Below, in pieces: positions 60,686 through 63,075 of a stretch of 64,000 bases of DNA; position 1 is the first letter of the stretch, and every line of letters begins with the position of its first letter. The stretch is taken from positions 1 through 64,000 of the forward strand of contig PALG01000029.1 of NCBI GenBank assembly GCA_002707025.1. The letters run 5' to 3'. Below the pieces are notes generated by a model, which was not told the origin of the DNA, did not search any database, and was given only the letters and a program-made list of their open reading frames with translations. The translations under genes and the position numbers were made by a program. The DNA is from Flavobacteriaceae bacterium. GTDB taxonomy: Bacteria; Bacteroidota; Bacteroidia; Flavobacteriales; Flavobacteriaceae.

Positions 60686-61201
60686 ATGAAAAAACTACTA
60701 CTCCTATTTGTATGCATTTCTTTTGGCCTTTCTGAAAGTTGGGCCCAGTACAATCATACCGAGACTGCCATCCCCGAAAGCGAAGTCCCAGAACTCATAA
60801 AAAAAATGCATCAGGAAAAATATCCTGGGGCTTTTGTCACTAGCTGGCAGGTAAAAACCGACAAGGTCGCAACAACCCCAAATCCCATTTATGTTGTGAA
60901 TTTTAAATTGGATGGTCGCCAAGGACACAAATCATTTTATACTGAAACCGACGGTTTCATGGCCTATATTGGCTTTATCAATCAGTATGACCTTCCTGAA
61001 CCTATTCAGGTATACGCCACGCAATACTTGGAAGACGATTACATTAAATACGGGCAAATCATTCAGCTGGAAAAGCCCTATATCTTTCTTTATCGGGTAA
61101 AAGTGAATAACAAAGGACAGCTGGAATATTTCTATTTTGACAAGTATGGCAATAAGATCGATAAAAAAAATATTGCCCCGAAAGTCTTTTCTTATATATA
61201 A
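60686..61201 (+). CDS. Secreted PepSY-like hypothetical protein
   Basis: The 171-residue protein has a signal peptide (LLLLFVCISFGLSESWAQ). The mature part (VPELIKKMHQEKYPGAFVTSW, VVNFKLDGRQGHKSFYTETDG) resembles the PepSY/DUF2874-like small beta domains of periplasmic proteins in this phylum. No catalytic motif is visible. Its stop at 61201 is only 6 bp before the promoter box of the asnB leader, so asnB transcription is at least partly separate. A TATCTTTA promoter-like box lies at 60661-60668. Confidence 0.75.
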   Translation: MKKLLLLFVCISFGLSESWAQYNHTETAIPESEVPELIKKMHQEKYPGAFVTSWQVKTDKVATTPNPIYVVNFKLDGRQGHKSFYTETDGFMAYIGFINQYDLPEPIQVYATQYLEDDYIKYGQIIQLEKPYIFLYRVKVNNKGQLEYFYFDKYGNKIDKKNIAPKVFSYI

Positions 61202-61206
61202 ATTTA

Positions 61207-61214
61207 TATATTTG
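61207..61214 (+). promoter_or_regulatory. -7 box TATATTTG for the asnB leader transcript
   Basis: The match to TAnnTTTG lies just after the previous gene's stop and 27 bp before the leader-peptide ATG. This places the start of transcription near 61221. A clear -33 element was not found. Confidence 0.55.
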
Positions 61215-61241
61215 AGAAAACACAGCGATAAATATCAAGTG

Positions 61242-61295
61242 ATGCTACAAAACCTAAATTATAATTTCAATAATAATAACAACGGAACTCCGTAG
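61242..61295 (+). CDS. Asn-rich attenuation leader peptide of asnB
   Basis: This 17-codon frame, ATG at 61242 to TAG at 61293-61295, encodes MLQNLNYNFNNNNNGTP. Eight of 17 codons are Asn, including five in a row (61269-61283). It lies between a -7 promoter box and a terminator/antiterminator pair, directly upstream of asparagine synthetase. This is the classic logic of amino-acid-biosynthesis leader peptides such as those of trp and his operons. Scarce Asn-tRNA would stall the ribosome on the Asn run. Its leading edge would then reach about 61297, leaving the antiterminator arm free. A ribosome reaching the stop codon would cover that arm instead. An Asn leader is not one I know as established, so confidence rests on the arrangement. 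Confidence 0.85.
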   Translation: MLQNLNYNFNNNNNGTP

Positions 61296-61334
61296 CAGAA
61301 ACTTGTACCCTATAAAAACCCGTCAAGTTTCCGC
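61295..61334 (+). promoter_or_regulatory. Antiterminator stem of the asnB attenuator
   Basis: GCAGAAACTTG (61295-61305) pairs with CAAGTTTCCGC (61324-61334) at 10 of 11 positions. The right arm overlaps four bases of the terminator's left arm plus its loop, so this stem and the terminator cannot coexist. A small separate hairpin, ACGGA (61282-61286) with TCCGT (61289-61293), sits at the end of the leader peptide and might act as a pause element. Confidence 0.75.
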
Positions 61335-61351
61335 TTGACGGGTTTTTTTTT
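61319..61351 (+). terminator. Rho-independent terminator of the asnB attenuator
   Basis: CCCGTCAAG (61319-61327) and CTTGACGGG (61334-61342) form a perfect 9-bp stem with a 6-nt loop, followed by nine T residues (61343-61351). It lies 29 bp before the asnB ATG, which makes little sense as a plain end of the upstream gene and good sense as an attenuator. Confidence 0.92.
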
Positions 61352-61380
61352 GAACAGAAACTAACCAAAACAATTATATT

Positions 61381-63075
61381 ATGTGCGGAATTGTATGTGC
61401 CTTCGACCTCAAGCAACCTAGTGAAGTGTTGCGCCCCCAATTACTGGAAATGTCCAAATGTTTACGTCATCGCGGTCCCGATTGGAGTGGAATCTACGAC
61501 GACCCCAAAGCCATCTTGGCCCACGAGCGACTGGCCATTGTGGACCCCACCTCGGGAAAACAGCCCTTATTTTCGGAAGACCGAAAGCTAATCTTAGCAG
61601 CCAATGGCGAAATCTATAACCACAACGAACTTCGGAAGCAGTTTGAAGGAAACTATCATTTTCAAACCAAAAGTGATTGTGAAGTGATTCTGGCGCTGTA
61701 TAAGGAAAAAGGAGCTAGCTTTTTAGATGAACTGAATGGCATCTTCGGATTTGCACTTTACGATGCAGCAAATGATGCTTACCTTATCGCCCGTGACCAC
61801 ATGGGAATCATTCCGCTCTACATGGGTTGGGATAAAGATGGTACGTTTTACGTGGCTTCGGAATTGAAAGCCCTGGAAGGGGTCTGTACCAAAATTGAAC
61901 TCTTCCCTCCCGGACATTACCTGTATAGCAAAGACGGCGAACTGAAGCGTTGGTGGACCCGTGATTGGATGGAATACGACCACGTAAAGGACAATGAAAC
62001 CTCGATTGAAGACCTACGGCAGGCTTTGGATGCTGCCGTACACCGCCAATTAATGAGTGACGTTCCCTATGGGGTGTTACTTTCCGGCGGACTCGATAGT
62101 TCGATTACTTCTGCCTTGGCCAAAAAATATGCCGATAAGCGTATTGAAAGTGGCGATGTGGAAAATGCGTGGTACCCCCGCCTCCACTCCTTTGCCATTG
62201 GGCTGGAAGGCTCACCCGATTTGGCCGCAGCGCAAAAAGTGGCCGACCATTTAGGGACCGTTCACCACGAAATCCATTTTACCATTCAGGAAGGGGTTGA
62301 TGCCTTGCGCGATGTCATTTATCATGTGGAGACCTACGACATTACCACCATCCGTGCCTCGACGCCCATGTTCCTTTTGGCCCGTGCCATCAAGGCGATG
62401 GGGATTAAAATGGTGCTTTCGGGCGAAGGAGCCGATGAGATTTTTGGAGGATACCTCTACTTCCACAAAGCACCTTCAGCAAAAGACTTCCACGAAGAAA
62501 ACGTTCGCAAGCTGGACAAACTCCACATGTACGATTGCCTAAGAGCCAACAAGAGTTTGGCTTCTTGGGGCATTGAAGGTCGTGTGCCTTTCCTGGATAA
62601 GGAATTTATGGATGTCGCCATGCGATTGAACCCCAAAGACAAGATGATCCTGGCCGGACAAAGCAGTTCTATGGATAAGCAGGCCATGGAAAAATGGGTG
62701 TTACGGGAAGCTTTTGGCGATAAGTTGCCCCAAAGCGTAGCTTGGCGACAAAAGGAACAGTTTAGTGATGGCGTGGGCTATAGCTGGATCGATACCCTAA
62801 AGGAATTAGTGAATAGCGAGGTAACCGACGAGCAATTGGCCAATGCAAAGTTTCGTTTCCCGATACAGACCCCTACCAGTAAGGAAGAGTTTTACTACCG
62901 CACCATTTTTGAAGAGCACTTCCCTAGCGATGCTGCTGCCCTAACCGTCCCTAGTGTTCCCAGTGTGGCCTGTAGTAGCGCCGTCGCATTGGAATGGGAC
63001 GAAAGCTTTAAAAACAGGAACGACCCCAGTGGACGTGCGGTTAAGAATGTCCATACCGAAGCATACGAAAAGTAA
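61381..63075 (+). CDS. asnB: Asparagine synthetase B, glutamine-hydrolysing
   Basis: AsnB makes Asn from Asp, Gln and ATP. The 564-residue protein has the N-terminal nucleophile Cys2 (MCGIVCAFD), the glutaminase motifs RHRGPDWSG, NGEIYNH and KSDCEVIL, and the synthetase PP-loop LLSGGLDSS near residue 234. GEGADEIFGGYLYFHKAP and GRVPFLDKEFM are further synthetase motifs. All are intact. Its length is close to that of E. coli AsnB (554 residues). It is preceded by the Asn-rich leader peptide and attenuator, so expression should rise when charged Asn-tRNA is scarce. A terminator follows 4 bp after the stop. Confidence 0.97.
   Translation: MCGIVCAFDLKQPSEVLRPQLLEMSKCLRHRGPDWSGIYDDPKAILAHERLAIVDPTSGKQPLFSEDRKLILAANGEIYNHNELRKQFEGNYHFQTKSDCEVILALYKEKGASFLDELNGIFGFALYDAANDAYLIARDHMGIIPLYMGWDKDGTFYVASELKALEGVCTKIELFPPGHYLYSKDGELKRWWTRDWMEYDHVKDNETSIEDLRQALDAAVHRQLMSDVPYGVLLSGGLDSSITSALAKKYADKRIESGDVENAWYPRLHSFAIGLEGSPDLAAAQKVADHLGTVHHEIHFTIQEGVDALRDVIYHVETYDITTIRASTPMFLLARAIKAMGIKMVLSGEGADEIFGGYLYFHKAPSAKDFHEENVRKLDKLHMYDCLRANKSLASWGIEGRVPFLDKEFMDVAMRLNPKDKMILAGQSSSMDKQAMEKWVLREAFGDKLPQSVAWRQKEQFSDGVGYSWIDTLKELVNSEVTDEQLANAKFRFPIQTPTSKEEFYYRTIFEEHFPSDAAALTVPSVPSVACSSAVALEWDESFKNRNDPSGRAVKNVHTEAYEK

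Follow-up and report, generated by a model that had tools for sequence, protein, structure and literature searches.

The question raised by the DNA in front of this asparagine synthetase gene is whether it lets the supply of asparagine decide if the gene is transcribed. The locus (61207-61380) belongs to a Flavobacteriaceae bacterium (GenBank assembly GCA_002707025.1, contig PALG01000029.1, positions 1 to 64,000; this whole stretch of 64,000 nucleotides is referred to here as the window), and it is flanked by an open reading frame of 171 aa (60686-61201) and by asnB (61381-63075). An earlier note, made from the letters of the window alone, had proposed that it is a complete asparagine attenuator. 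Searches of the genome found AsnB once, AsnA not at all and a single AsnRS above the cut-off; asnB is hence the sole gene for Asn synthesis found in this genome, and the charging of tRNA-Asn should report free Asn. No Asn-rich leader with a terminator was found in the 450 nt before the matched asnS stretch of the same genome.

Architecture of the asnB leader region

A base-by-base check located every element that had been named, including the candidate promoter box, the perfect 9-bp terminator with its nine Ts and the leader in which eight of 17 codons specify Asn (Table 1). The gene behind them is an asparagine synthetase, as had been claimed: it scores 921.7 bits against the NCBIfam model NF006949 (asparagine synthase B; cut-off 499).

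Table 1. Positions of the elements of the asnB leader region and of the gene behind it, in window numbering.
Feature	Position	Strand	Remarks
Candidate -7 promoter element TATATTTG	61207..61214	+	fits TAnnTTTG, a consensus taken from PMC9723704
Arm 1 (protector), CAAGT + TGCTAC	61236..61248	+	part of the leader start codon lies inside; partner 61292-61305
Leader peptide ORF MLQNLNYNFNNNNNGTP, 8 Asn codons of 17	61242..61295	+	ATG 61242, stop TAG 61293-61295
Asn run AAT AAT AAT AAC AAC, proposed stalling site	61269..61283	+	last Asn codon 61281-61283
Arm 2	61292..61305	+	partner is arm 1, or arm 3 via 61298-61305 (plus 61295-61296); the stop codon of the leader lies in it
Arm 3 of the antiterminator, CAAGTTTC plus GC at 61333-61334	61324..61334	+	61324-61327 common to the 5' terminator arm
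Intrinsic terminator	61319..61351	+	9-bp stem 61319-61327/61334-61342, then nine T at 61343-61351
asnB, glutamine-hydrolysing asparagine synthetase B, 564 aa, proposed regulated gene	61381..63075	+	NCBIfam NF006949 and TIGR01536 above cut-off

The terminator stem, formed by CCCGTCAAG and CTTGACGGG around the six-base loop TTTCCG, is extended to 15 pairs in the predicted fold if the flanking A-U pairs are counted. The antiterminator, described in the earlier note as 11 bp long, is present and does share bases with the terminator; it consists, however, of 10 pairs of 11, with eight contiguous pairs (61298-61305 with 61324-61331), an A-C mismatch at 61297/61332, and the pairs C61296-G61333 and G61295-C61334. 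The earlier note had overlooked a third helix, termed here the protector, which in the predicted fold comprises 11 pairs (61236-61240 with 61301-61305 and 61243-61248 with 61292-61297) and joins the start-codon region of the leader (arm 1) to its stop-codon region (arm 2). Since arm 2 can pair with arm 1 or arm 3, and arm 3 with arm 2 or arm 4, the three helices (1:2, 2:3 and 3:4) partly exclude one another; this layout of arms is that of the classic attenuator. The whole arrangement is compact, with 110 nt from the leader ATG to the end of the T run, and the 186-nt leader region folds better than each of 200 dinucleotide shuffles (z -4.1).

Distribution of the leader among asnB loci

Searches with the AsnB protein provided 80 loci, mostly from Flavobacteriaceae, the best being 94% identical (Halomarinibacterium sedimenti). 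Inspection by eye of 350 bases upstream of the gene showed an Asn-rich leader followed by a terminator at 49 of the 80. A fixed joint rule, with thresholds chosen after the leaders had been seen (an ATG-initiated frame 8-30 codons long, with no fewer than 4 Asn codons making up 25% or more of it, and a terminator starting at most 70 nt from the stop codon), picked out 43 asnB upstream regions from 79, and none from either the 1,580 dinucleotide shuffles or the 251 control regions; the controls precede other open reading frames of at least 150 codons at the same loci and were drawn from all six frames, so that some of them are not real genes. The rule fails to catch six of the 49 leaders counted by eye. 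One locus with only 7 nt of upstream sequence (L071) was left out of the model scan described below, and three (L070, L072 and L076) were assessed only by that scan and by the rule, which did not select them. These comparisons support the earlier reading of the locus as an Asn attenuator.

The 49 leaders and that of the window were combined into an alignment of 50 rows (A2), and a covariance model built from it was run with strict filters on 349 genomes of the family, many of which had also contributed to the model; it returned one strong match (E 1.4e-6 or better) in each of 36 genomes, and asnB lies directly behind every one of them (36/36). Among 247 genomes of the class the only strong match was in the window's own genome, the next best having an E-value of 2.4e-5. 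We examined 21 weaker matches (E 7.5e-6 to 0.0078; 14 from the family search and 7 from the class search), and asnB was absent from the stretch in all 21. Reuse of the element on other genes was considered for 12 weak matches that were read; these resemble ordinary terminators and hence were not counted. Several of the 12 share the hairpin GACCTGTCAGG...CCTGACAGGTC. In L141, L154, L157, L158, L162 and L163, from several genomes, nearly the same terminator hairpin, GACCTGTCAGGTTT..AAACCTGACAGGTC, is found each time, and it weakly mimics the model. The full-length scan of 30 of the 31 leaderless loci, together with L108, L110, L172 and L180, gave three weak matches (E 0.05-0.36), none of them within 1 kb before asnB.

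Placed on a FastTree phylogeny of 120 chosen AsnB sequences, a choice that leaves aside L070, L072, L076 and several other loci, the leader-bearing rows make up 55 of the 56 in one branch (local support 95). The single exception (L055) is a MAG on a long branch, in which neither leader nor terminator was seen, and the next two rows outside the branch, both Mesonia, are without a leader. Relatives that keep the terminator and lack an Asn-rich frame, which the earlier note had named as evidence against its proposal, were not seen among the 56 rows of this clade. Two changes on the tree are enough to account for the distribution, and one gain in one asnB clade would be the simplest reading.

The leader as a coding sequence

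Across the 50 leaders, 338 of 756 residues are Asn, with a median of 7 Asn in a median length of 16; this share is biased, as the leaders were picked for Asn richness, and the related species in the set are not independent. Codons of the form AAN are distributed as AAT 239, AAC 99, AAG 9 and AAA 3, that is, 338 for Asn to 12 for Lys, and the Asn codons that the earlier note expected to find in related Flavobacteriaceae have thus been kept. Spacing, which was no criterion in the selection, is shared as well: in 46 of 50 leaders the run's last Asn codon is followed by exactly three sense codons and then the stop codon, and in 46 of 50 the distance from the first base of the last Asn codon to the 8-nt antiterminator arm is 17 nt. 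Judged by the preference for AAY over AAR and by this shared spacing, the leader is under coding constraint.

The footprint of a ribosome reaches about a dozen bases ahead of its A site, so a ribosome halted on the last Asn codon would leave arm 2, directly ahead of it, uncovered, and a ribosome at the stop codon would cover that arm. The last sense codon (61290-61292 in the window) encodes Pro in 39 leaders and Thr in 11, which may reflect either the pairing of the protector or slow termination at a Pro-stop sequence; the stop codon is TAG in 23 of the 50.

The box TATATTTG is where the earlier note had placed it; the strict -7 consensus, however, is found in only two of the 50 leader regions, those of the window and one relative, where shuffling predicts 1.6, and is therefore not enriched. 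A looser motif, ATMTTTR, defined post hoc after the sequences had been viewed, occurs in 34 of 50 against 3.7 expected, 27-38 nt before the leader ATG, and its enrichment is only suggestive. Shine-Dalgarno sequences are described as absent in Bacteroidota (PMC9723704).

Conservation and folding of the helices

Compensatory changes in both stems had been proposed as a check, and they proved abundant in one of the two. In the terminator 97.2% of the cells of A2 are paired, seven of 11 pairs have changed on both sides, no shuffle among 500 reaches the covariation score, and slid controls pair at most 53.1%. The antiterminator is paired in 99.2% of cells (slid controls, at most 68.3%), and just one of its eight pairs shows a two-sided change (A-U in 30 rows, G-C in 11). 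Counted as pairs, such changes are not above shuffles, 498 of 500 of which reach the same number; counted as cells, they exceed them (0/500). The scarcity of two-sided changes is partly due to arm 2 being nearly invariant, and since the terminator places its own demands on arm 3, the conservation of that arm does not count as independent evidence for the antiterminator. When the RNA before arm 4 is folded, the minimum-energy structure contains at least three of the four inner antiterminator pairs in 49 of the 50 rows; in the remaining row, L016, an additional C in arm 2 is matched by an additional G in arm 1.

For the protector, the duplex of arms 1 and 2 falls inside the best 5% of 200 shuffles in 38 of the 50 rows and fails to do so in 12. 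Its stem A, in the best placement, has five of five pairs in 39 of 50; compensated variants are CAAGC/GCTTG (two rows) and CAAGG/CCTTG (one), and one row, CAAGC/ACTTG, is uncompensated. Stem B is complete in 17 of 50, and rows whose codon 2 begins with C all have a TAG stop (5/5). By these comparisons the protector is supported across the group as a whole, and is weak in some species.

Ribosome positions were modeled by masking the bases under an assumed footprint, and three states were folded. In the RNA up to 61333, all eight antiterminator pairs form (8/8) when a ribosome sits on the last Asn codon and none (0/8) when it stands at the stop codon, which upholds the geometry claimed in the earlier note for that footprint. 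Ribosome-free RNA up to 61333 forms eight of eight antiterminator pairs and six of the 11 protector pairs, and this preference for the antiterminator is a poor fit to a strong protector. At full length the terminator forms completely (9/9) in all three states, accompanied in the ribosome-free state by the complete protector (11/11). Given that the terminator is predicted to be more stable than the antiterminator (-21.2 versus -9.5 kcal/mol), the switch must act kinetically, during transcription, a mode of action that is accepted for known attenuators.

A model for control of asnB and its alternatives

Three of the features by which an attenuator is recognized occur together at this locus: a short frame rich in codons for the end-product amino acid lies upstream of the biosynthetic gene, an intrinsic terminator lies between the leader and asnB, and in computation, with the footprint assumed above, antiterminator and terminator are mutually exclusive, a ribosome at the stop codon masking the former and one at the stall site leaving it open. 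The Asn frame, the helices, their geometry and the link to asnB are conserved in the sequences compared. We consider it very probable, at roughly 88%, that asnB is controlled here by transcription attenuation, with the ribosome on the leader sensing charged tRNA-Asn; translation of the leader, stalling, coupling and the response to Asn are what we infer. The His-rich leader before hisG of this genome and the Asn-rich leaders before asnA, both described below, add to the case; the asnS result given above and the lack of conservation of the strict -7 box weigh against it.

Under this model, when Asn-tRNA(Asn) is scarce the leading ribosome would stall while reading the run of Asn codons, its front edge not quite reaching arm 2, and this arm, left free, would pair with arm 3 once the latter has been transcribed, so that RNA polymerase would continue into asnB. 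When Asn is plentiful the ribosome would reach the stop codon within arm 2 and mask this arm; arms 3 and 4 would then pair and transcription would end. Should the leader remain untranslated, arm 1 could hold arm 2, which would again favor the terminator. The model needs coupling of translation and transcription in Bacteroidota.

The most plausible competitor, itself improbable, accepts that the leader is translated and has control exerted, in the manner of a uORF, through effects of its ribosomes on the translation of asnB or through Rho, the hairpin being incidental. The coding constraint on the leader would suit such a mechanism, and leader genes close to structural genes have been hypothesized to boost translation by re-initiation, with a peak of distances at 11-14 bp in Bacteroidetes (PMC4833913); here the distance from the leader stop codon to asnB is 85 nt (73-214 nt across the 50 leaders), far off that peak, and the intervening DNA holds a covarying intrinsic terminator with a T run, overlapped by an alternative helix that starts at the stop codon. 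It is more improbable still that the product is a trans-acting sRNA or a processed leader, with the terminator merely marking its end and the Asn run serving another purpose. The terminator is strong, and Rfam sRNA families (rli38 and CyaR) do match, at scores that stay below their gathering thresholds (38.7 versus 49 and 31.4 versus 47); neither the conservation at codon level nor the fixed spacing between frame and arm would be expected of an sRNA, and the presence of asnB behind all 36 strong model matches also speaks against it.

Direct sensing of asparagine or of tRNA-Asn by a riboswitch or T-box, without translation, has a precedent in the Asn T-boxes found before asn genes in Firmicutes, which likewise sense the charging of tRNA-Asn and set the choice between terminator and antiterminator, and which differ from the proposed attenuator in binding the tRNA directly. 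We regard this explanation as highly improbable, since the window gave no Rfam match at gathering score, T-box included, no conserved structured domain was seen besides the three short helices, and the conserved element upstream is a reading frame. Equally improbable is a chance origin, that is, a low-complexity AAT run in a spacer that is indeed AT-rich, joined to an ordinary terminator of the upstream gene of the kind that is common between genes: the results of the joint rule on shuffles and on other upstream regions, the ratio of AAY to AAR and the shared spacing speak against it.

Asn- and His-rich leaders at other loci

Genes for the other asparagine synthetase, AsnA (PF03590), were looked for in overlapping sets of 80, 349 and 198 genomes and found in 6, 25 and 10 of these, respectively; one genus has them in 10 of 12 genomes. 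Among 42 asnA upstream regions scanned (the partial loci L243 and L244 fall outside this number), 17 contain an Asn-rich frame followed by a terminator. One genus supplies 10 of these 17; in all they span five genera, one of which lies outside the family of the window. Fifteen of the 17 are of one type, with a candidate antiterminator arm in the last codons, and the complementarity of this arm to the terminator arm is inside the best 5% of shuffles in 11 of the 15, L209-L212 being the ones in which it is not. Ten of the 17 loci have another Asn-rich frame and terminator in series, the arm of this second unit passing the same shuffle test in two of 10 (L198 and L233); as read from these sequences, the second unit is a lead.

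Asn-rich leaders with terminators are seen before asnA at L197, L207-L215, L198 and L233, among others. In one genus, the second asnA frame contains the motif NNNxPPP and in many cases continues into its terminator with no intervening stop codon. At L222 and L224, which are asnA loci from another family of the class, an NNSNNN-LFR part of the frame resembles the asnA leaders of Flavobacteriaceae; this likeness suggests shared descent, or transfer together with the gene.

Outside the leader-bearing clade, other Asn-rich frames were noticed before asnB at L108, L110, L172 (here without a terminator) and L180, four cases that caught the eye among 56 asnB loci rather than a count by a fixed rule. 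At two further loci, L059 and L171, the frames MFTFNNNNSNCLFAS and MIFTFNNNNSNCLFAS immediately precede asnB and are followed by no terminator; these loci were not counted, and such Asn-run frames could be a relic or a form of translational control.

The genome of the window also has a His-rich leader, MRNTQLHHHHFHTGYQASGE, followed by a terminator, before hisG (L206; contig C26, at 173845), and by its sequence this is a probable His attenuator, one that matches no Rfam family. Compared by leader and terminator alone, it shares its design logic with the asnB leader of the same cell, with His instead of Asn.

The Asn leaders before asnA are dissimilar to those before asnB, which suggests that attenuators of this kind may have been invented repeatedly. 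On balance, the sequences lead us to favor, with some reserve, the view that ribosomal attenuation by Asn is recurrent in Bacteroidota and has arisen several times: once in one asnB clade of Flavobacteriaceae, separately before asnA (in five genera of two families, often as two units in series), and possibly before asnB of other families; the near-invariant 17-nt spacing would then act as a natural ruler of the geometry from ribosome to hairpin.

Relation to known systems and significance

The E. coli leaders trpL, hisL, leuL, ilvL, thrL and pheL are likewise short and rich in codons for the regulated amino acid, and their three helices 1:2, 2:3 and 3:4, the terminator before a biosynthetic gene and the stop codon near arm 2 all have counterparts here. 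What differs from the E. coli attenuators is the amino acid (Asn), the gene (asnB), the phylum (Bacteroidota), the compact length and the position of arm 1 over the leader start codon.

Leaders of trp, cys and leu genes in Actinobacteria resemble the present case in their regulatory codons and in a conserved short motif that is shared by terminator and antiterminator (PMC1262725); they belong to another phylum, and neither "asn" nor "asparagin" occurs in the main text of that study. Closer in phylogeny are the amino-acid operons of Flavobacterium psychrophilum, also a member of the Flavobacteriaceae, for which "strong clues" of leader-peptide attenuation have been reported (PMC9723704); the main text names neither "asparagine" nor "asnB," and its supplementary list may hold an Asn case. 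A transcriptome paper on B. thetaiotaomicron mentions short ORFs reminiscent of leader peptides, and a 2010 survey stated that demonstrated leader peptides were until then confined to Proteobacteria and Actinobacteria, and added His leaders in bacilli.

The Asn leader before asnB had seemed new to the earlier note. We found none in the portions of literature searched, and Rfam 15 gave no match at gathering score, T-box and Trp, His, Leu, Thr and Phe leaders included, for the window and five further loci with Asn- or His-rich leaders. That Asn is a new amino acid for the known principle of leader-peptide attenuation is therefore a view that we hold lightly.

If the model is true, asparagine joins the amino acids that are sensed via leader-peptide attenuation, and the asnA units in series, if they are what they seem, would give a two-step check on Asn. 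Given the fixed spacing and an alignment of 50 members, a handful of point changes could put the model to the test. The asnB leader would, moreover, be a compact natural reporter of how closely ribosomes follow RNA polymerase in Bacteroidota, a phylum in which the coupling of translation to transcription has been little tested.
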